NCBI GenBank assembly: GCA_027459505.1
Contig: DAIDIE010000014.1
Location: 62,001 to 126,000 of the forward strand
Reading direction: 5' to 3'
DNA: 64,000 nt
From: Acidobacteriota bacterium
Lineage (GTDB): Bacteria > Acidobacteriota > Terriglobia > Terriglobales > SCQP01
Below the pieces are notes generated by a model. That model was not told the origin of the DNA. It ran no database searches and saw nothing but the letters and a program-made list of their open reading frames with translations. The position numbers and the translations under genes are program-made. Positions within the stretch are counted from its first letter, which is position 1. Every line of letters starts with the position of its first letter. This document shows positions 9,249 to 63,716 of the stretch, piece by piece.

Positions 9249-10232
9249 ATGCGACGCGATCACGAGGATACCCACCCGTTGAGAGTTGAACCCCTTACCC
9301 TCACCCATCTGGTGCGGCTGGAGAACGAATTACGCCGCGTCATCCGTAGTTCCGATCAGGCCGTCCGCATGACGCTCACCGCGCTGCTCGCCGATGGGCA
9401 CGTCCTGATTGAAGATGTTCCTGGCGTTGGCAAGACCACCCTGGCGCATGCGGTGGCACGCACGCTGGATGGCAGCTTCCAGCGCATTCAGTTCACCAGC
9501 GATCTCTTGCCCAGCGACGTGGTGGGCACCAACATCTACAGCCAGCGCGCGGAGCGCTTCGAATTCAAGCACGGGCCGATCTTCGCCAATGTGGTTCTGG
9601 CTGACGAGATCAACCGCACCACGCCCAAAACGCAATCGGCGTTGCTGGAGGCGATGAACGAGCACCAGGTCACGGTGGATACCGAAAGCCATCCGCTGCC
9701 GCGCCCTTTTCTGGTCATTGCCACCCAGAATCCGAGCGAGCACCACGGGACGTTTCCCCTGCCCGAATCCCAACTGGACCGCTTCCTGGTGCGCATTCGC
9801 ATGGGCTACCCCCATCGCGAAGACGAACTGGCCATCTTGCGCGGGCAGGCCGGGGCGGAACAACTCTCCGGGCTGCAGCCCCTTCTCAGCACAGACAATG
9901 TGCTGGAATTGCAGCAGATGACCCGCGAGGTGCACGTGGACGATTCCCTGCTGGAATACGAACTGGCCCTGGCCGGCGCCACGCGTCACCATGACAGCCT
10001 GGCGATTGGCGTCAGCCCCCGCGGCACGCTGATGCTGCACCGGGCGGCGCAGGCGCGGGCGCTCCTGGAAGGGCGTACCTACTGCACCCCCAGCGACATC
10101 AAAGACATGGTCGTGCCGGTTTTCTCGCACCGTGTGCTGGTTCAGCCGCGGCTGGGAGCTGGCCTGCAGCGGCCGGAGCAGATCGAAGCACTGATTGCCG
10201 CCATTCGCGACACGGTTCCGGTTCCCGAATAG
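9249..10232 (+). CDS. MoxR-family AAA+ ATPase
   Basis: AAA+ chaperone-like ATPase of the MoxR group, which typically works with DUF58 or von Willebrand A proteins in cofactor insertion or envelope stress. It has 327 residues, Walker A in VPGVGKTT, Walker B in VVLADEINRTTP, a sensor-1 region around VIATQNPSEHHGTFPLPE, and the C-terminal lid domain. The ATG at 9249 is used; a TTG at 9279 is an alternative. Its usual DUF58 or VWA partners are absent, which is unusual: the next gene is a pterin carbinolamine dehydratase. Confidence 0.92.
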   Translation: MRRDHEDTHPLRVEPLTLTHLVRLENELRRVIRSSDQAVRMTLTALLADGHVLIEDVPGVGKTTLAHAVARTLDGSFQRIQFTSDLLPSDVVGTNIYSQRAERFEFKHGPIFANVVLADEINRTTPKTQSALLEAMNEHQVTVDTESHPLPRPFLVIATQNPSEHHGTFPLPESQLDRFLVRIRMGYPHREDELAILRGQAGAEQLSGLQPLLSTDNVLELQQMTREVHVDDSLLEYELALAGATRHHDSLAIGVSPRGTLMLHRAAQARALLEGRTYCTPSDIKDMVVPVFSHRVLVQPRLGAGLQRPEQIEALIAAIRDTVPVPE

Positions 10233-49218: not shown

Positions 49219-49695
49219 ATGGATCAGTTGTCGCGACAACTTGGCGCTCTGTTCATCGGGAGTGTGCCCACCATCCTGATTTTCATCGTGCTGCACTTCT
49301 ACTTGCGCGGCGTCCTCTATCGCCCGCTGCAGCGCGTCTTGCGCGAGCGCAAGACGCGTACGGAGGGCGAACTGGAGATTGCGCGGCAGAAGATGAGCCT
49401 GGCGGAACAAAAACTGCGGGAATACGAGGCCGCCATTCAGGCGACCCGTGAAGCCAACTACCAGTTGCTGACCGAGCGCCGTCAGCAAGCGCTGCATCAG
49501 GGACAGCAGACCCTGGCCGAAGCGCGTCAGCAGGCGGAGACCGCACTGCAAGCCGCCCGCCAGCAAGTCGCCGAGCAGGTCACCAGCGCCCGCCAACAGC
49601 TCAACAACGAAGCGCGCCAGCTTTCGACTCAGGTCATCAACGCAGTGCTGGAAACTGGCGCCGCAAGCGCCGTCAACCCGGGAGTAGGCGCATGA
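49219..49695 (+). CDS. atpF: ATP synthase subunit b (first of two)
   Basis: Peripheral stalk subunit of F0. It has 158 residues with one N-terminal membrane helix (FIGSVPTILIFIVLHFYL), then an uninterrupted Ala/Glu/Gln-rich coiled coil (ELEIARQKMSLAEQKLREYE and onward). Shorter than its neighbour and with no signal peptide; it corresponds to b or b'. The last four bases overlap the start of the second b gene (ATGA), which indicates translational coupling. Confidence 0.93.
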   Translation: MDQLSRQLGALFIGSVPTILIFIVLHFYLRGVLYRPLQRVLRERKTRTEGELEIARQKMSLAEQKLREYEAAIQATREANYQLLTERRQQALHQGQQTLAEARQQAETALQAARQQVAEQVTSARQQLNNEARQLSTQVINAVLETGAASAVNPGVGA

Positions 49696-50453
49696 AGCAG
49701 CCGGGTTCCCTCGTCCTGAAGTTCCTTGTTCTCGCCGCTCTGATGGCGCCGGTCGGCTTGTGCGCGCAGGCCGCGCCCACCGCCTCTTCTCCCGCGCCCG
49801 CCGCCATAAAGCATCAGCCGGTAACCGTCCGCAATCATCCTGGCCAGCAACCCGGCGCCGTTCCCAGCAATGCCGCCAAGCAGGCGGGGGGCGACGATGA
49901 CGACGTTCGCAACATCAGCACCTGGCTCGACGGCCTTTCCCGCAAGACCGGCATCCCAAAAAACACGCTTTGGACCGGCGTGGTTGTCATCAACCTCCTG
50001 ATCCTGCTCTGGATTCTGTATACCGTCCTGTTCCGCGGCAAAGCCTGGTCGCTGCCACAGCATCTGCGCGCGCGCAGCGGCGAAATTCGCGACTCCCTGC
50101 GGCAGGCCGCGCAGGCCCGCAAAGATTCCGAACAGCGGCTGCTGGATGTGGAAGACCGGCTGGCGCGGCTGGGCCAGGAAATTGAGTCCATGCGCACCCA
50201 GGCCGCGGCGGAAGCCGAAGCCGAGTTTCGTGAGCTGCTCGAGCAGGCCGCCAAAGAGGCCGGCAACATCGCCCGGCGCAACGCCCTGGAAATTGAAGCC
50301 GCCACCAAGGCCGCCCGGCAACAACTCCGCGAGTACACCGCCGATCTCGCCGTGCAGTTGGCGGAAGAGCATCTGCGCCACGCCCTGACCCCCGAGAAGG
50401 ATCGCGCCGTGGTCCAGCAATCAGCCCAGGCGCTCGGTAAAGGCCGCGCCTGA
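49692..50453 (+). CDS. atpF: ATP synthase subunit b (second), with signal peptide and extra N-domain
   Basis: 253 residues, about 90 longer than a usual b subunit. An N-terminal signal-peptide-like segment ends near LCAQAAP. A Pro/Ala-rich stretch with four Asp (GGDDDDVRN) follows, then the membrane helix (TGVVVINLLILLWILYTVLF), and the coiled coil with QLAEEHLRHALTPEKD near the end, which is typical of b C-termini. Presence of two non-identical b genes suggests a b/b' heterodimer stalk. Confidence 0.9.
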   Translation: MKQPGSLVLKFLVLAALMAPVGLCAQAAPTASSPAPAAIKHQPVTVRNHPGQQPGAVPSNAAKQAGGDDDDVRNISTWLDGLSRKTGIPKNTLWTGVVVINLLILLWILYTVLFRGKAWSLPQHLRARSGEIRDSLRQAAQARKDSEQRLLDVEDRLARLGQEIESMRTQAAAEAEAEFRELLEQAAKEAGNIARRNALEIEAATKAARQQLREYTADLAVQLAEEHLRHALTPEKDRAVVQQSAQALGKGRA

Positions 50454-50457
50454 AACC

Positions 50458-50538
50458 ATGAACGCAACGATAGACGCAACCATGGACGCAAGGCCTAAAG
50501 CAGCTAGAGAGGCAAGGCCGCTGAATTTATGTCAGTAA
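50458..50538 (+). CDS. possible 26-residue leader peptide before atpH
   Basis: ATG at 50458 opens a 26-codon frame reading MNATIDATMDARPKAAREAR and ending at TAA 50536-50538, inside the atpH start region. The first 36 bases are three 12-bp repeats sharing ACGCAA. atpH itself has no good ribosome site close to its ATG. Translation of this peptide could couple atpF' to atpH. Whether it is translated is unknown. Confidence 0.3.
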   Translation: MNATIDATMDARPKAAREARPLNLCQ

Positions 50539-51071
50539 TCGATCAACGATACGCCCATGCCCTGGCCGACCTGGTGGAAGCCGGGCGCGCCAACCCCGAG
50601 TTGTTGGGGCGCGAATTGGGCGACCTCGCGCAGATGCTGCACGAGTCCCCCGAGCTGCGCCAGATACTCGGCAGTCCCGCCATTCCGGTGCGGAACAAGC
50701 GCGGCTTGCTGCAGACCATTGTCACCCGCGCCGGCCTGTCGCCGCTCACCCGCAATCTGCTGCTGGTGCTCAATGACCGCGGCCGCCTCACCGCCCTGCC
50801 CGCCATCGCCAACGACTTCCAGGAAATTCTCCTGCAGCGCCGCGGCGTCCACCGGGCGGAGGTGGTCAGTGCCCGTGTCCTTGACCAGGAAGAGCAGCGC
50901 GGTCTTGAGCAGCGGCTGGCGGCCGTGGTGGGTGGCAGCGTGCAAGCCACTTATCGCCAGGATCCCAGCGTGATCGGTGGTTTTCTGGCCCGCGTTGGCG
51001 ACACCGTTTTTGACGGCAGCTTGCGTGGACGCCTCGAGCGCATGCGGCAGCGCCTCGTCGCGGGAGCGTAG
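50529..51071 (+). CDS. atpH: ATP synthase subunit delta
   Basis: OSCP-type subunit that joins the stalk to the top of F1. It has 180 residues. Conserved features are RYAHALADLV at the start, LTRNLLLVLNDRGRLTALP in the middle, and VIGGFLARVGDTVFDGSLRG at the C-terminus. It lies in the usual place before atpA. Confidence 0.94.
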   Translation: MSVIDQRYAHALADLVEAGRANPELLGRELGDLAQMLHESPELRQILGSPAIPVRNKRGLLQTIVTRAGLSPLTRNLLLVLNDRGRLTALPAIANDFQEILLQRRGVHRAEVVSARVLDQEEQRGLEQRLAAVVGGSVQATYRQDPSVIGGFLARVGDTVFDGSLRGRLERMRQRLVAGA

Positions 51072-51112
51072 CATCAGGTTTTTGAACGGGCCCTGTTGCC
51101 CGGCAGGTTTAT

Positions 51113-52651
<1,539 letters not shown>

Positions 52652-52728
52652 AGGCTGGCGCCGGCGCCATTAGTTGACCCGGGGAGGCGTGCCACGCGGG
52701 CCGCCGCCGCAAACGTTTTAGTAAGCTC

Positions 52729-55160
<2,432 letters not shown>

Positions 55161-55170
55161 ATGGCTTCGC

Positions 55171-55198
55171 GAGAAGGCGCCGCCTGCGACGCCTTCTC
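55171..55198 (+). promoter_or_regulatory. stem-loop between atpD and atpC
   Basis: GAGAAGGCG pairs with CGCCTTCTC (9 bp, perfect) over a 10-base loop, ten bases after the atpD stop. There is no T tract. It may stabilise the upstream message or reduce atpC expression. Confidence 0.5.
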
Positions 55199-55223
55199 TA
55201 TTCACAACTGATCATCAATCGCC

Positions 55224-55625
55224 ATGAGCTCATTCGACCTGGAAGTTGCCACCCCGGAAAAGCTGGTCCTGCGCCGCACCGTCACCAGTGCGCAAATCCC
55301 CGCCGAAAGCGGCTATATCGGGGTTCTGCCCGGACACGCTCCGCTGATCGGCCGCCTGGGGGCGGGCGAGTTGTCGTTTGAAAGCGAGCAGGGCGGCGAA
55401 CGCCTGTTCGTGGGCGGCGGGTTCCTGCAGGTACTTCCTGGCCGCGCTGTCCTGCTGGCCGATATCGCCGAGTTCCCGAACGAAATCAACGTTGAGCAGG
55501 CACAGCGCGATCTCGACGCGGCGCAAGCATTGGAACGCAGCCACGACCCCAACACCGATTTCACCGCCGCTGTGCGCGCTGCCCGCTTCGCCCAGGCCCG
55601 CCTTGACGTGGCTGCCAGGAAGTAG
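55224..55625 (+). CDS. atpC: ATP synthase subunit epsilon
   Basis: F1 stalk subunit that also inhibits ATP hydrolysis. It has 133 residues. The N-terminal beta-sandwich shows LEVATPEKLVLRRTVTSAQI and ESGYIGVLPGHAPLI; two short C-terminal helices (EQAQRDLDAAQALE and onward) follow. Last gene of the operon and convergent with the formate dehydrogenase genes. Confidence 0.95.
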   Translation: MSSFDLEVATPEKLVLRRTVTSAQIPAESGYIGVLPGHAPLIGRLGAGELSFESEQGGERLFVGGGFLQVLPGRAVLLADIAEFPNEINVEQAQRDLDAAQALERSHDPNTDFTAAVRAARFAQARLDVAARK

Positions 55626-55671: not shown

Positions 55672-56757
55672 TTACTGCGCACCCACCCCGCCCCATCCTG
55701 GAGCCGCGTGGCTGGGACGGGAGGCGGCATGGCTGGCGGCAATGTCTTCAATGGCATCACCGCCGGCGTGCACCAGTGTCCAGCGCAACAGCCAGGCGGC
55801 CCCCAGAGCGAGCAGCGCCCCGGCAATACGGCCCGCGCGGATGCGCTCTGGCGCTTGCCGCGATTGCTTCGCGGGCAACAGGCGCTGCAGACGGCCGGGC
55901 CCAAGCTCGGAAGCTACCGTCGCTGCCAGCGCCCCCAAAAGCATGAGTCCGCGCCTTCTCCGCCACAACGGCCGTCCCGCCCGGCCGCTGCGCTTCAGAT
56001 GTAGCCCCAGAAAAAGTAACTCCAGAAGTTTGCTACCACGTTCCACCGGGTCGAGCAGGCCGCTCCAGGCACTGTTGTGCTGGTTGCGCAGCGCCAACTC
56101 CAGCTTGAGTTCGCTGGCGCCACTGCCAAATGCTCCGCTCACAAAGACGGCGCTCAACCAGGGACTCTGATTCCAGATCGGCACGCTGGTTCCGGCCAGT
56201 AACGCGCCAGCGTATCCGGTCATCCCCAACGCAAAGGGAACGCCGGCCAGTTCCAGCGCAGCGACCGGCAGACGGCTCAAGGGCCGCGAAAGAGGGCCGA
56301 GCTTGCCATCTTCGCCGGCTGCCTGCAAAAACGTGATGCCGGCGAAGCCGCCAAAGCCGGAGAGCACCCACGAGCCCAGGTTCATCGGCGAGCCCGGCTT
56401 GAAGACGCGCAGCATATGGTAGAAACGCTCCGGGCGGCCCAGATCCTTGATCAGTAAAATGGGGCAGGGTAGAAAGGCGAGAAACGCCATTTCATGCGCC
56501 ACATTGCGCAGGTGCCGCATGCGGCTCCCGCCCAGGCGGCCAGCCAGCGTTCCCAGAAGATAGCAGCCGGAAGCAACGCCTTCCAGGAAAAAGTACCAGG
56601 CGATTTCCCATTTCCAGGTGGGATGTTTGAGAAACGGAATGTTGTAGTAATTGAGCTCCGTGGGAGGCGCCGCGGTTGGCACGCGCAATGGATGCGCCGT
56701 GAGTTCGCTCACCCCCAAACTCGCTTGCCCGCTCACAGCCGGTTGCGACGCCATCAT
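55672..56757 (-). CDS. NrfD/polysulfide-reductase-type membrane subunit of formate dehydrogenase
   Basis: Quinone-interacting integral membrane protein. It has 361 residues with about eight helices. The NrfD pattern is seen from WEIAWYFFLEGVASGCYLLG, with PILLIKDLGRPERFYHMLR and FALGMTGYAGALLAGTSVP. It overlaps the beta-subunit gene by four bases. This replaces the cytochrome b gamma subunit (FdnI) of E. coli, so electrons enter the quinone pool without haem in this subunit. The C-terminal 25 residues are Ala/His-rich and probably disordered. Confidence 0.88.
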   Translation of the reverse strand: MMASQPAVSGQASLGVSELTAHPLRVPTAAPPTELNYYNIPFLKHPTWKWEIAWYFFLEGVASGCYLLGTLAGRLGGSRMRHLRNVAHEMAFLAFLPCPILLIKDLGRPERFYHMLRVFKPGSPMNLGSWVLSGFGGFAGITFLQAAGEDGKLGPLSRPLSRLPVAALELAGVPFALGMTGYAGALLAGTSVPIWNQSPWLSAVFVSGAFGSGASELKLELALRNQHNSAWSGLLDPVERGSKLLELLFLGLHLKRSGRAGRPLWRRRRGLMLLGALAATVASELGPGRLQRLLPAKQSRQAPERIRAGRIAGALLALGAAWLLRWTLVHAGGDAIEDIAASHAASRPSHAAPGWGGVGAQ

Positions 56758-57713
56758 GCGGCCTCCTGATTTCCGGAGTTTCCCTTACCCGCGCTCCACG
56801 CCGAAAACGCCAACAGCGCCAGCCCGGTGAGCGCGCCAAACAGGTAGTTGGCCCCGAGACTGGCGCGAGGACGGCGCGGCGCCGCCGGCAGGTTGTAAGC
56901 TTCAGGGCGCTCTGTCAGCAGAAAAAAGGCATTCAGGGCGGAGTATTCGCCCGCCGCCTGGTCACCGTAAAGGTAGGCGCGCTGTTCGCCACGCCCTTGC
57001 AGTTCGCCAACCCGCCGGCGCGCCCGCTGCCGGAGTTCGTCGACCGGGCCAAATTGAATGCTCGCTGTGGGGCAGGCTTTGGCGCACGCGGGCGTCAGAC
57101 CATCGCGCTGGCGGTCGTAGCACAGCGTGCACTTGTGCGCCCGTCCGTCGCTTTCGGTGCGGCTCAACACCCCGAACGGGCAGGCGGAAACGCAATAGCC
57201 GCAGCCATTGCAAATATCCTGCTGCACGTAAACGTTGTGAAACTCGTTGTAGAGGATGGCGCCGGTGGGGCAGGCCTCCTCGCAAGGCGCCTGTTCACAG
57301 TGCTTGCACACATCGCTCATCATGAGCCAGCGCGCCACCTGACCGGCAGCGCCCGAGGCACTCGCATCGGTGAGATGGGTGACGCCCTGGTACGGAGCGC
57401 CTGCCGTGTAATCACCAGAACCATTGCTGGCCAAATCGCCTGGCGACCCCGCGCCAGAGGTGGAGTGACCACCGTTGAGATTTGCCGCGGGCATCTGCTC
57501 CACAAACGCGACGTGGCGCCACGTCGAGCCGGAGAGGCAATGCGTGTTGTCGTAACTGGTCGCCGCCCAGTCAAAGCCGTCCGCCGGAAGCTGGTTCCAT
57601 TGTTTGCAGGCGACTTCACAGGCTTTGCAGCCGATGCACAAGGTGGTATCGGTGAAAAAGCCGGTGGCGGGCTGAGGCGCGGGGGCTTCCGCGGACTTGA
57701 AAAAGGTCAACAT
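56754..57713 (-). CDS. formate dehydrogenase iron-sulfur (beta) subunit
   Basis: Electron-transfer subunit with four 4Fe-4S clusters. It has 319 residues. Four Cys groups are visible: CIGCKACEVAC, CKHCEQAPCEEAC, CNGCGYCVSAC and CTLCYDRQ with CAKAC. One C-terminal membrane helix (YLFGALTGLALLAFSAW) anchors it, as in FdnH. About 45 residues of Gly/Ser/Ala insertion (105-150 of the protein) separate the first and second Cys groups. Confidence 0.93.
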   Translation of the reverse strand: MLTFFKSAEAPAPQPATGFFTDTTLCIGCKACEVACKQWNQLPADGFDWAATSYDNTHCLSGSTWRHVAFVEQMPAANLNGGHSTSGAGSPGDLASNGSGDYTAGAPYQGVTHLTDASASGAAGQVARWLMMSDVCKHCEQAPCEEACPTGAILYNEFHNVYVQQDICNGCGYCVSACPFGVLSRTESDGRAHKCTLCYDRQRDGLTPACAKACPTASIQFGPVDELRQRARRRVGELQGRGEQRAYLYGDQAAGEYSALNAFFLLTERPEAYNLPAAPRRPRASLGANYLFGALTGLALLAFSAWSAGKGNSGNQEAA

Positions 57714-57724
57714 ACTTCGCTACC

Positions 57725-60700
57725 TCAGGGCCGCCGGTGTGCCGGAGCTCCCGTGCGCGCATTGGATTCCGGCCGGCTCTCCAATTTTGGTGCATCGTCA
57801 GGACGCAGGGCATGTCCTTCGGGCTGGGCCGCCGGCGGAGTATCCGGGATCTCGCTTTGATTACGCCAGGGCTGGAACGGCAGAGGCGCAATCACCCTAC
57901 GTTTGGAGTGCTTACCTTTGCGGATATTGCAGACAAACGCCTTGGCCTCGTGCATGGAAACGTTCGGGTCGGTCAGCAACGACGTCAGGTCGTTGGCAAT
58001 CGCCCCGACTCGCTCGCCGGCATAACCCCAGTGGAAGGGCACACAGATCTGGTGCAGCTGCCGCCCTTCGACGAAAAGAGGGCGGATGCGCGGCGTTACC
58101 AGCGCCCGGACATCAATCGCTGTACGCTCGTTCCAAACGGTGATCCAGTCGCCGTTTGCTATACCCTTTTCGGCCGCCAGTTCCGGGCTGAGCTCAGCAA
58201 ACATTTCGGGCTGCAGCTCGTTCAGCCAGCTATTGAATCGGCTCATTGGGCCGCTGAGGTAATGCTCGGTGAGACGATACGTGGTCGCAACAATTGGGAA
58301 ATGTGGATCAGCGGGCCTGGACAGGCGGTTCAGCTTTGATGGGTACTCCTTGACGGCAGGATCACTCTGCTGCCGGTAGAGCAGGTTGCCGACCGGCGAT
58401 TCGAAGGGCTCATAGTGCGCCGGCAACGGGCCATCCTTGACGCCCGCCGGGGCAAACAGCCAGATACGGCCATCCGGCTTGAGGATAAAGGGCGCGTCGC
58501 CGGCGATCGCTTCCATGCCATGCGAGTGGCTGGTGGGGCGGTAGGAGGGCTTTTTACTGGTCGGAAAATCCGGGGTGTCGCTTCCCGTCCAGGCGCCTTT
58601 TTCCTCGTCCCACCAGACGTACTTCTTGCGCTCCGACCAGGGCTTGCCCTCAGGATCGGCCGAGGCGCGGTTGTAGAGCATGCGAATGTTCTTCGGCCAC
58701 GCCCAGGCCCATTTGGGATCGACGTAATTCCCTGCCGTCCGTTCCCGCGAACGGGCATGGTTAAAGTCTTTGCTGGGAAAAACGCCGGAGTAGATCCAGC
58801 AGCCGCAGGCGGTGCTTCCGTCGGCCTTGAGCTCGTCGTAACCGGTGAGCTGCTCACGGCTGTCGACGTGGTAGCCATTGATCTCGCGCAGCACTTTGCT
58901 GACGTCCGGCTCTCCCTCAATCCGGCTGTTGGAGCCATCGGGAAGGGTTGCGGCGCCGTCGCGGCCGTAGTCCCAGGTGAGGTTCAATAAGCCCTGGTCG
59001 CGGGCCGCCCGGGAACCGGCATACAGGGCTTTCAGCCGCACGCCAAGCTGGTAGACGAACCAGCTATCGGAGCGGCAATCGTCCGGAGGATCGAGCGCCT
59101 TGTCATGCCATTGCACCAGGCGTTGCGTGTTGGTGAAGCTGCCTTCTTTCTCAGCCACAATGGCCGCGGGGAAAAAGAAGATCTCCGTTTTTACCTTTTT
59201 GGGGTCGATGCCGTCCGGGTCCTTGTACCAGTAGCTGGCGGTCTCGGTTTCAAACCAGTCCATCATCACCAGCCAGTCGAGCTCGCGCAGCGCTTTGCGC
59301 GCCAGCCGGGCGTTGGGATTTCCCCCCGCCGGATTCTGCCCGAGGATGAAGTAACCGGTAACCTCTCCCTGCGCCATCTTGTGCACATAGGGAAGCTGGG
59401 AGTAGTTGTCGTCGATTTTCGGCAGCCAGTTGAAACCGAAACCGTTTTGCTTGGTTGCGGCTTCCCCGTACCAGGCCTTCAGCAGGCTGATCATGTACGT
59501 GGGAAACTTCGCCCAGACGCCGTTTTCGACCTTTTCCTGCTCCAAATAGTCCTTCAGGGTTTCATGGCGGCGCACGGTAGCGGGCTGCGGAATGTAACCC
59601 GGCAGCAGGTTGTAGAGGGTGGGAATATCCGTCGAGCCCTGGATGCTGGCATGGCCGCGCATGGCCATGATCCCGCCACCCGGCCGGCCCATGTTCCCCA
59701 ACAGCCCCTGCAGTATGCCCGCGGCCCGGATGATCTGCACTCCAATGGTGTGCTGCGTCCAGCCCACCGCGTACACAATCGCCGAGGTGCGCTCCGGGCC
59801 GGAATTCTGGCAAAGGGTTTCCGCAACCTGAATCACCGCATCCGGCGAGCAGCCGCAGATCTCAGCGACTTTCTCCGGCGTATAACGCGAATAGTGTTTT
59901 TTCAGGATCTGGAACACACACCGCGGATGCTGCAGCGTCGGGTCGCTGGGTGGCGTCGGATTGTCCATGTTGGCCAGACGCTCGCTCCACGACTCGGCGC
60001 CAATCGAGGCGGGCGTGTTGGTGCGGTTCGATCCCGGTTCACCCTGGTAATGCCAGGCCTTGGTCCCCGCCTCGTAATGGTGGCTGCTTTCTTTGTAGCC
60101 GTCGAACAGACCACGGAAGTTGTCCTCTTCCGTGTCGCGGAATTTTGCGCCTACCAACGTTGCCGCATTGGTGTAATGCAGCACGTACTCCTTAAACCAG
60201 CGTTCGTTCTCGATCACGTAGCGAATTACCCCGCCGAGAAATGCAATATCGGTGCCGGCGCGGATGGGCACATAGAGATTGCACATCGCCGAGGTGCGGC
60301 TGAAGTGCGGATCGACGTGAATGAGCGTGCCACCCTTTTCCCTGGCCTTCATCGGAAAGCGGAAGCCGACCGGATGGGCTTCCGCCATGTTGGAACCCAT
60401 AATGAGGACGCAATCGCTATTGGCCAGGTCCTGCTGAAACGAGGTGGCCGCGCCGCGGCCGAAAGTGACGCCCAGACCGGGCACCGAAGCGCTGTGTCAT
60501 ATTCGCGCCTGGTTTTCGATCGACACCATCCCCAGGCCGCCGCCGAATAGCTTCTTCATCAGGTAGTTCTCTTCGTTGTCCAGGGTGGCGCCGCCCAGGC
60601 AGCCGACGCTGGTCAGCGCGTTAATGACTTCGCCCTTCTTGTTCTTTTCGCGGTACTCGCGATCCCTGGTCTGCTTGAGGCGGCGGGCCACACGGTCCAG

Positions 60701-60997
60701 CGCCCATTCCAGAGGTTTCTCCTCCCAGTGGTCGCTGTAAGGGGCGCGGTAGCGCACCCGCGTGATGCGGTGAGGGTTGGCGGCGAGTTGAAAGGTGTTG
60801 GCGCCTTTAGGGCAGAGGGTTCCCTCATTGATGGGGCTTTCCGCATTGCCCTCAATGTCGATGATCTTGCCGCCTTTCACGTAGACCTTCTGGGAGCAGC
60901 CCACGGCGCAGTAGGGACAAATGCTGTCCACTGCAACCGCACCGCGCAAGCGGGAGTGCTTGGCAGCCGACTGTGGGCTGAAAGGGGCCTGGGACAT
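57725..60997 (-). CDS. formate dehydrogenase alpha subunit, selenocysteine- and molybdopterin-containing
   Basis: Catalytic subunit oxidising formate to CO2. One gene of 1091 codons, with UGA at 60499-60497 read as selenocysteine 167. Flanking residues VSIENQARI and HSASVPGLGVTFGRG align around the Sec of E. coli FdnG/FdoG (NQAR-x-U-HG). A 4Fe-4S site (CPYCAVGC, then TLCPKG) is at the N-terminus, and molybdopterin-binding segments include NMAEAHPVGFRFPMK and GNMGRPGGGIMAMRGHA. The ATG at 60997 (MSQAPFSPQ) is preferred; the frame is open to 61081. No twin-arginine signal is seen, unlike FdnG. The C-terminal 60 residues are extra and Pro/Arg-rich. Part of a minus-strand operon with the Fe-S and NrfD genes; diverges from the Mrp genes. 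Confidence 0.93.
60467..60499 (-). promoter_or_regulatory. Sec UGA codon and SECIS-like hairpin
   Basis: UGA at 60499-60497. Exactly 18 bases later on the coding strand a loop GGTCT (60478-60474) is closed by GGTGCCC/GGGCGTC (7 bp, two G-U). E. coli fdhF has the same GGUCU loop after 18 bases, which SelB binds (established knowledge). Confidence 0.85.
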
Positions 60998-61127
60998 GGA
61001 ACACCTCGCTTGCCCAGATTCGCCCGCCAGCCGGGCAGGTTGTCTAGTGGCACCTCGTGCAACCCTCCTGGGAAGAACCATCTCTGTTCAGGGTTGGGGC
61101 AGGTCCAGCGCCCTGGGAGGCCAGCAT

Positions 61128-61667
61128 ATGCAAGAGGATGTGCGTGAGCAACTGCGCCAACTGCGACGCTTGCTGTTGCGCCCTCGCGCCCTTGTGCTGT
61201 CCCTACTGTTTTTGGCCTTGTGGCTGCTGTTTACCCATAGCCTCCTCTGGCAGGAGCTGCTGCTGGGGCTGGGCATGGCGGTGCTGGCCACGGTCGCAAC
61301 CATTTTGGCGGGGTGGGGCGCAGGCATCAAGCTGGCGCCGCGCTGGACCTGGCTGCTGCTAATCCCTGCCCTCGTTACTAGCGTCCTCCGGGAAACGGCC
61401 ATGATCTTTGCCGTGCTTTTGCAGCGCCTCGCCGGCAAGCGCCTGCGCTCCCGGCTCGCAACCGCGCCGTTTCATTTCGGGAGCGATACTCCGCGCGATA
61501 AGGCCCGCCGCGCCGCCGCTTTACTGCTGAGCACCGTCTCACCCAACTTTATCGCCCTGGATCTGGATAAGGAAACCAACGTCCTGCTCTATCACCAGCT
61601 CATCCCAGCGCCCCCCTCACCTGTGGTTGTGCGGCTCTCGGGCAAGCAGGGAAAGGAGCGCCCTTGA
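61128..61667 (+). CDS. mrpE: Na+/H+ antiporter subunit E (MrpE/MnhE, MbhA-like)
   Basis: Membrane subunit of a Mrp-type cation/proton antiporter. It has 179 residues from the ATG at 61128 (GGGAGG eight bases before it); longer forms from 60921 are not supported. Helices are at about 25-45, 48-66 and 73-95, followed by a cytoplasmic domain with LLLSTVSPNFIALDLDKE, which matches the MnhE signature. First gene of the operon. Confidence 0.9.
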   Translation: MQEDVREQLRQLRRLLLRPRALVLSLLFLALWLLFTHSLLWQELLLGLGMAVLATVATILAGWGAGIKLAPRWTWLLLIPALVTSVLRETAMIFAVLLQRLAGKRLRSRLATAPFHFGSDTPRDKARRAAALLLSTVSPNFIALDLDKETNVLLYHQLIPAPPSPVVVRLSGKQGKERP

Positions 61668-61915
61668 ATCTCTGGCTTTGGGCTGCCGCTGGCATGATGA
61701 TCGCGCTGCTGCCCTGCCTGCTGGCCGCATGGCGCGGCTCGGCAATGCAGCGCCTGCCCGCGCTGATTGCCGCTGGCAACGTGGTGATGTTTATCCTGGC
61801 GCTGCTGGCGGAAGCGGAGCACCGTCCGCCCATGTTTGACGTCGCCCTGGCGGCGGCGTTGCTGGCCTTTTCCGCTGGCCTGGTCTTTGCGCGCTTCCTG
61901 CAGCGCTGGCTTTAA
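61664..61915 (+). CDS. mrpF: Na+/H+ antiporter subunit F (MrpF/MnhF, MbhB-like)
   Basis: 83 residues, three hydrophobic helices, from a TTG that overlaps the mrpE stop by four bases. The middle-helix Asp expected in MrpF is seen in FDVALAAALLAF. Position and size decide the call; sequence similarity alone is modest. Confidence 0.85.
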   Translation: MNLWLWAAAGMMIALLPCLLAAWRGSAMQRLPALIAAGNVVMFILALLAEAEHRPPMFDVALAAALLAFSAGLVFARFLQRWL

Positions 61916-61924
61916 GAGAACCCC

Positions 61925-62278
61925 ATGCACGTCCTCATCGCAGTGCTGCTGGCGATTGCTGTGCTGGTTACCCTCATCAGCGCTTGCGGCGTGTTGGTGA
62001 TGGACAGCTTCTACGACCGGCTGCACTATCTGGCGCCGATTTCCACTATCGCCACGGTTTGTTTGTTTGCCGCCATTTTCCTGCGTGAACTGCTTTCCCA
62101 GGCCGGCGTCAAATCGCTGCTCATCGCCGCAGTGATCCTGTTCATGAGCCCGGCGCTCAGCCAGTCCATCGCCCGGGCGGGGCGCATCCGTGAATTTGGC
62201 GGCTGGAATCCCGACCCGCAGGCGCATCCCGGCGGCCAAGAGCATCCGCGCCAACACCCCAGGCGGGGGCAGTCGTGA
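61925..62278 (+). CDS. mrpG: Na+/H+ antiporter subunit G (MrpG/MnhG, MbhC-like)
   Basis: 117 residues with three helices. GVLVMDSFYDRLHYLAPIST is the MnhG hallmark (the RLH segment after the first helix). The C-terminus is hydrophilic and His/Pro-rich. The next gene starts within its stop codon. Confidence 0.9.
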   Translation: MHVLIAVLLAIAVLVTLISACGVLVMDSFYDRLHYLAPISTIATVCLFAAIFLRELLSQAGVKSLLIAAVILFMSPALSQSIARAGRIREFGGWNPDPQAHPGGQEHPRQHPRRGQS

Positions 62279-62601
62279 TGCTCGTACTGCAGGTCGCAAG
62301 CCTGGTGCTCGTGGCGATGGGCGCTACCGCGGTGATCCTCACGCGCAACCCGTTGCGCCAGTCGCTGAGCATGAGCCTCTACGGCTTGCTGCTGACGCTG
62401 ATGTTTTTCCTGTTCCAGGCGCCCGACGTGGCGCTGGCCCAAATCGCTGTGGGCGCGGTGGCGCTCCCGCTCATGATTTTGCTGGCTCTCAGCAAGGTGA
62501 AACAAAACGAGCGCGACGCCGCTTACGCGCGGCAACGCGATGAAAAGGCCAGCCAGGGTGAGCGGCGGGACAAGCCCTCGTCGCGAAAGGGGCAAGAATG
62601 A
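62275..62601 (+). CDS. DUF4040/MbhD-like antiporter subunit
   Basis: 108 residues. Three helices with NPLRQSLSMSLYGLLLTLMF and APDVALAQIAVGAVALPLMI match the MbhD/DUF4040 domain, which in many MrpA proteins is fused to the large subunit. Here it stands alone. The C-terminal tail is highly charged. GTG or the next codon ATG may start it. Confidence 0.85.
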   Translation: MMLVLQVASLVLVAMGATAVILTRNPLRQSLSMSLYGLLLTLMFFLFQAPDVALAQIAVGAVALPLMILLALSKVKQNERDAAYARQRDEKASQGERRDKPSSRKGQE

Positions 62602-63350
62602 ACGCGCGCGCGCGTCTGCTGGTATTCGCTTTGGGAGCGCTGCTGCTGGGCGGCGCCTACATGGCAGCCTTGTCGCAATTGGCGCCGCTGGGTCGAGGGG
62701 CCAGCGCCTATGCCGATATTCTCAACCGCGTCTGCGTCAGAGAGCGCCACATCACTGACGTGGTCACTGCCGTGAACTTCGACTACCGCGGCTTCGACAC
62801 CCTGGGCGAGGAATTCATCATGTTCACCGCGGTGATGGGAGCGGTATTGCTTTTGCGCCGCGGTAAAGATGAGGTCCAGGCGCCCCAGGAAGACGAGCTC
62901 ACCAGCCGCCGCGGCCGCAGGCGCAGCGACGCGGTGGCCCTGGCGGGCGTGGTTTTTACCGCGGTTTTGCTGCTGTTCGGCAGCTACGTCATCACCCACG
63001 GACAGCTCACACCGGGGGGCGGTTTTCAAGGCGGCGTGATTGCCTCCACGGCGCTATGGCTGGTTTACCTCAGCGGCAGTTACAAAGTCATGCGGCAGGT
63101 TGGCCCCAAGCCGCTGGTGGAAGCGGCCGAAGCGCTGGGAGCCGCCGGTTACGCCCTGGTGGGCCTGATCGGCCTTTTTCAAGGCGCGGCTTTCCTGCAA
63201 AACACCCTGCCGCCCGGCTCCATCGGCAGCCCGTTTTCGGGCGGCACGGTGCCCTTGATCGACATCGCTGTCGGCCTGGAAGTCAGTGGAGGATTCGTCC
63301 TGCTGCTGCTGACGTTTATGGAGGAAGTGCTGGAAATCCGCTTGCACTGA
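62598..63350 (+). CDS. MbhE-MnhB fusion subunit of the antiporter
   Basis: 250 residues. The N-terminal 90 residues carry ERHITDVVTAVNFDYRGFDT and EEFIMFTAVMGAVLLL, matching MbhE; the C-terminal 150 residues are MnhB (SYVITHGQLTPGGGFQGGVI). In Pyrococcus Mbh these are two separate genes, mbhE and mbhF. Overlaps the previous gene by four bases. Confidence 0.85.
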   Translation: MNARARLLVFALGALLLGGAYMAALSQLAPLGRGASAYADILNRVCVRERHITDVVTAVNFDYRGFDTLGEEFIMFTAVMGAVLLLRRGKDEVQAPQEDELTSRRGRRRSDAVALAGVVFTAVLLLFGSYVITHGQLTPGGGFQGGVIASTALWLVYLSGSYKVMRQVGPKPLVEAAEALGAAGYALVGLIGLFQGAAFLQNTLPPGSIGSPFSGGTVPLIDIAVGLEVSGGFVLLLLTFMEEVLEIRLH

Positions 63351-63356
63351 AACACT

Positions 63357-63704
63357 ATGCTCAACATTTTCTGCTACAGCATTGCCGCCTGGGTCCTGTT
63401 GATCGGACTCTACGGCGTGGTGACCAGCCGCAACTTGATTCATCTGGTGCTGTGCCTTTCCGTGATGGAAACCTCCACCTATGTGCTGCTCACCCTCATT
63501 GGCTACCGCGTCGGAGGGACCGCTCCGGTATTTGCCGACATCCCGGTGGGCACCAAGGCCGTCGATCCGGTCGTCCAGGCCTTGATGTTGACGGACGTTG
63601 TCGTGGAGGCCACCGTTATGGCGCTCCTGCTGGCACTGGCCGTCCAGGCACATAAGCGCACCGGCTCGCTGGACCCACACGATCTGCGCGCCCTGCAGGG
63701 CTAA
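63357..63704 (+). CDS. mrpC: Na+/H+ antiporter subunit C (MrpC/MnhC, NuoK-like)
   Basis: 115 residues with three helices. LIHLVLCLSVMETSTYVLLT carries the buried Glu of NuoK/MrpC. TDVVVEATVMALLLALAVQA gives the third helix. Follows the MbhE-MnhB gene by 6 bp. Confidence 0.9.
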   Translation: MLNIFCYSIAAWVLLIGLYGVVTSRNLIHLVLCLSVMETSTYVLLTLIGYRVGGTAPVFADIPVGTKAVDPVVQALMLTDVVVEATVMALLLALAVQAHKRTGSLDPHDLRALQG

Positions 63705-63716
63705 AGGCAAACCCTT

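Follow-up and report, generated by a model that had tools for sequence, protein, structure and literature searches.

FdhA has been described as the bacterial selenoprotein family with the widest distribution (PMC13188914). The selenoproteins of Acidobacteria were counted in 2006, and changes from selenocysteine (Sec) to Cys in FdhA have been recorded (PMC1794560); in the formate dehydrogenases of Geodermatophilaceae, selenocysteine is decoded from UAG with a CUA tRNA-Sec (PMC5330540). Because FdhA selenoproteins, the acidobacterial counts and the UAG variants are all published, the gene described below is an ordinary finding: it is of a well-known type, a textbook selenocysteine FdhA.

The E. 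coli K-12 fdhF and fdnG sequences were read directly from NC_000913. Both resemble the present locus in having Sec at the aligned position and a loop 18 nt after the UGA; the fdnG loop is AGUCU, whereas that of fdhF is GGUCU, as found here. The best-scoring solved relative is 1h0h, the W-dependent formate dehydrogenase of Desulfovibrio gigas, which is not known to have an NrfD-like membrane partner. In the present locus, unlike in 1h0h, a third gene, for a membrane protein, follows fdhA; this gene is NrfD-like, as opposed to the FdnI type of the E. coli FdnG system.

The locus lies in the window (the whole stretch of DNA analysed, 64,000 nucleotides), which is part of an acidobacterial genome of 4.06 Mb (G000; 96.85% complete, 0% contamination). 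Positions 57725–60997 are almost certainly one gene, fdhA, in which the UGA at codon 167 is predicted to be decoded as selenocysteine by SelB, tRNA-Sec and a hairpin, and whose product would be followed in the enzyme by a 4Fe-4S protein and then an NrfD-like subunit. The features are as follows:

57725–60997, minus strand: fdhA, catalytic (alpha) subunit of a predicted Sec-containing Mo/W-pterin formate dehydrogenase, 1090 amino acids (translation, NF041513/TIGR01553, structure alignment)
60497–60499, minus strand: in-frame UGA, codon 167, predicted to be read as selenocysteine (it falls on the Sec residues of 1h0h_A and 1kqf_A)
60467–60485, minus strand: putative SECIS apical hairpin, arms GGUGCCC (60485–60479) and GGGCGUC (60473–60467), loop GGUCU (60478–60474)
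56754–57713, minus strand: fdhB, 4Fe-4S electron-transfer subunit (TIGR01582 159.6 bits, below the cut-off of 334.7; Fer4_11)
55672–56757, minus strand: NrfD-like membrane subunit (weak NrfD/TtrC matches; conserved gene order)
49692–55625 and 60921–63710, plus strand: flanking ATP synthase and Mrp/Mnh genes

One reading frame across codon 167

Translation of 57725–60997 (minus strand) with TGA read through gave 1090 residues and a single internal TGA, at codon 167, which splits the catalytic subunit just as an earlier, sequence-only reading of this DNA had described; the terminal stop is TGA too. A ribosome-binding-like GAGGTG lies directly 5' of the ATG at 60997. That ordinary gene callers would split the gene was also anticipated, and standard ORF calling indeed yielded 60497–61081 (194 amino acids) and 57725–60484 (919 amino acids). 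This outcome is exactly what two genes would give, i.e., an Fe-S protein of 166 residues and a 919 amino acid oxidoreductase with its own start, but the second ORF starts only 12 bases past the UGA, within the conserved active-site segment, and homologues with solved structures run through this junction as one chain. Two genes are thus judged extremely improbable. The proposal of one selenoprotein gene rather than two ORFs is borne out by the single frame, the position of the UGA at the Sec of solved enzymes, the hairpin and the machinery. For annotation, fdhA and its relatives should each be entered as a single selenoprotein gene, since split entries cause a formate dehydrogenase to be overlooked or taken for a broken one.

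FdhA matched NCBIfam NF041513 (formate_DH_Act) nearly end to end with 1434.6 bits (cut-off 1400), and TIGR01553 with 994 bits (cut-off 814). The N-terminal 4Fe-4S cysteines (CxxCxxxC...C) are present as CPYCAVGC...LCPKG, both in the translation and in the alignment to solved enzymes. Residues 22–1027 aligned with 1h0h across the selenocysteine, and codon 167 fell on the selenocysteine (printed X) of 1h0h and of 1kqf; the latter is E. coli FdnG, to which an alignment across the UGA had been suggested. A His directly follows the UGA (RI-UGA-H). The context NQARI-UGA-His had been said to equal the E. coli FdnG/FdoG site; the Sec position does agree, but the context is near-identical rather than equal because FdnG reads NQARV-UGA-H (FdhF reads CCARV-UGA-H). 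By inspection, no RR leader of the twin-arginine type was seen at the FdhA N-terminus (MSQAPFSPQSAAKHSRLRGAVAVDSICPYC), and the protein was therefore filed with the NF041513 kind and not with the periplasmic FdnG/FdoG. The curated models and the Sec-aligned UGA together identify FdhA as the alpha subunit of a selenocysteine-containing formate dehydrogenase, its activity being predicted.

The hairpin downstream of the UGA

Exactly 18 nt separate the UGA from the GGUCU loop, which sits on a stem of seven pairs, two of them G-U; loop, stem and spacing had all been noted from the letters and are directly readable. The further assertion that distance and loop match those of the fdhF SECIS holds for E. 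coli MG1655 fdhF (18 nt, GGUCU). The stems differ, however, as E. coli fdhF has a bulged U, which is absent here; the seven-pair stem, like that of nearly all relatives, is uninterrupted. SECIS elements of bacteria are highly variable, and many are unlike those of E. coli (PMC13188914), so the missing bulge weakens only the description of this hairpin as an fdhF-type SECIS in every detail.

As a check on chance, every TGA triplet of the window was considered, 1643 in all when the two strands are counted together. At the same offset, two are followed by a stem of at least seven pairs with a 5-nt loop, and only four by a loop of the [AG]GT[CT]T type; codon 167 of fdhA is the sole triplet with both the 7-bp stem and the loop type. 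Thermodynamic folding of the 45–60 nt after the UGA did not favour the hairpin (z-scores of 0.46 and 0.78), and, since free-energy folding gave no support, support was taken from comparative evidence. The energy of the isolated hairpin is -7.4 kcal/mol here versus -13.4 kcal/mol in relatives, the weaker value being due to the two G-U pairs. At gathering thresholds, Rfam returned no SECIS family in the window, only tRNA and SRP RNA.

Relatives: stop codon, stem and gene order

Relatives were drawn from named genomes of Chloroflexi, Actinobacteria, Myxococcota, Eremiobacterota and Acidobacteriota (e.g., Bryobacterales, Terriglobia) and, as a second source, from the phylum to which the window belongs (396 genomes). 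The window's FdhA is about 48–57% identical to most of the named relatives and about 73% to those of its own family. The NF041513 homologues (Actinobacteria, Chloroflexi, Myxococcota, Eremiobacterota, Acidobacteriota) have the stop codon, the hairpin and the fdhA-fdhB-nrfD order as here.

A stop codon occupies the Sec site in all 110 homologous loci, a count that includes the window's own copy (L103): UGA in 90 and UAG in 20, with neither Cys nor a frameshift at the site in any of them. A split ORF is of course also what a pseudogene would show, whether from a nonsense mutation or from a sequencing error at codon 167. A stop at the same position in 110/110 loci argues against this, as do the Sec machinery, the hairpin and a dN/dS of about 0.17 downstream of the stop; we regard a pseudogene as a negligible prospect. 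Measured against same-family relatives, dN/dS is equally low on the two sides of the UGA (about 0.2 before, about 0.17 after). Two of these relatives (G399 and G400), ~73% identical, keep the UGA and the hairpin and have no frameshift at the site; a frameshift in sister species in place of Cys or Sec had been named as evidence that would tell against a selenoprotein, and none was found. Conservation, the Sec machinery and the selection seen downstream of the UGA led us to reject a frameshift reading of fdhA.

In one same-family relative (G400, contig C57; L144, ~9944–9977), the fdhA match is interrupted near residue 832, which leaves it in two pieces; candidate causes are an assembly error, an insertion and a real lesion.

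With about 110 loci in many phyla carrying UGA or UAG and never Cys, this FdhA subfamily is conceivably locked to selenocysteine, although we consider that rather unlikely. If it were so locked, the enzyme would be lost or moved along with the Sec machinery, not adapted.

The twenty relatives with UAG before the same hairpin (L053, L059–L061, L066, L067, L073, L074, L076–L078, L080, L083–L088, L090, L091) belong to Geodermatophilus, Blastococcus and Goekera, plus one Bacillus sp. AZ43 record (UNVERIFIED), which looks misnamed. They match the published UAG-selenocysteine of Geodermatophilaceae: protein family and hairpin are as here, but the codon is UAG in these 20 loci, and the reported tRNA-Sec is CUA (PMC5330540), as against UGA and a UCA anticodon in the window's genome.

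Comparison of 100 distinct sequences showed the six inner stem pairs to be standard in 92–99%, a pattern that is lost on shifting either arm against the other by a single base. The bottom pair is G-C in the window's fdhA and C-G in G399 and G400. The stem also co-varies synonymously, through the third bases of two codons, one for Val (left arm) and one for Gly (right arm): GTG occurs with GGC or GGT, GTC with GGG, GTT with GGA, and GTA with GGT. These third positions are Watson-Crick paired in 81% of 81 sequences, compared with a shuffled mean of 30%, a level reached by 0 of 20,000 shuffles, which ignore relatedness; the main pair types recur across different phyla. Such co-variation, the strongest point of the comparison, indicates that the hairpin is under selection beyond coding constraint, and this acidobacterial genome adds a clear case of a SECIS stem that co-varies at synonymous positions.

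Gene order is conserved as well. Directly downstream of fdhA, fdhB was found in 80/80 related loci, and the NrfD-like gene was third in 74 of the 80, the sequence of the other six ending earlier. The product of 55672–56757 is probably the membrane anchor and quinone-linked subunit. The fdh genes are flanked on one side by a gene cluster for an F-type ATP synthase (b, delta, alpha, gamma, beta, epsilon) and on the other by a divergent cluster for a Na+/H+ antiporter of the Mrp/Mnh type. Neither ATP synthase nor Mrp antiporter genes lie beside the enzyme in any of the relatives examined, many of whose flanks are short, and this neighbourhood is therefore probably incidental.

Selenocysteine machinery

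Each family of the machinery was searched for separately in the window's genome. The sequence-only reading had proposed looking there for selA, selB, selC and selD, and had named the absence of selA, selB or selC as counting against it; all four genes are present. The selA match scored 543 bits and lies on the window's own contig, selB is full-length (677 amino acid frame, 325 bits, cut-off 242), and tRNA-Sec (selC) scored 79.7 bits with anticodon tca. The selD match (351 bits) is also on the window's own contig:

G000, contig C24, 313736–314662 (L019:1477–2571): selD, likewise a selenoprotein gene, interrupted in frame by a UGA at AAG-U-AGK

Arms GGTCCA/TGGACC, with a different loop, follow the selD UGA.

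Cys is the usual substitute for Sec in related oxidoreductases, and read-through of codon 167 as Cys, or else as Trp, might be proposed on that ground. That the genome encodes tRNA-Sec (UCA), SelA, SelB and SelD, that the hairpin belongs to the type bound by SelB, and that solved homologues have Sec at the position of codon 167 make such a reading most implausible.

With codon 167 read as selenocysteine, and by analogy with the known families, SelB carrying Sec-tRNA-Sec (anticodon UCA) would bind the GGUCU hairpin 18 nt downstream of the UGA and, competing with release factor 2, bring selenocysteine to the ribosome. Selenocysteine 167 would then be a ligand of Mo/W in the bis-pterin cofactor and participate in the oxidation of formate, the presumed substrate, to CO2. 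Electrons would pass from FdhA to the 4Fe-4S protein (56754–57713), on to the NrfD-like membrane subunit (55672–56757) and to quinone; we infer that the catalytic subunit is likely cytoplasmic and supplies electrons to a quinone-linked subunit in the membrane.

A survey of 60 further genomes from the phylum detected selA in 38 of the 40 that have this enzyme and in 1 of the 20 that lack it, but the 20 enzyme-less genomes are not independent because they come mostly from one family and genus. The two homologue-bearing genomes in which selA was not found are G261 and G341, perhaps owing to incomplete assemblies. Within the window's family (relatives G396–G408 plus the window's own genome), 12 of 14 genomes have selA and only three have the formate dehydrogenase, and 4 of the 12 selD genes lack the UGA; other selenoproteins thus probably keep the Sec machinery in these genomes.
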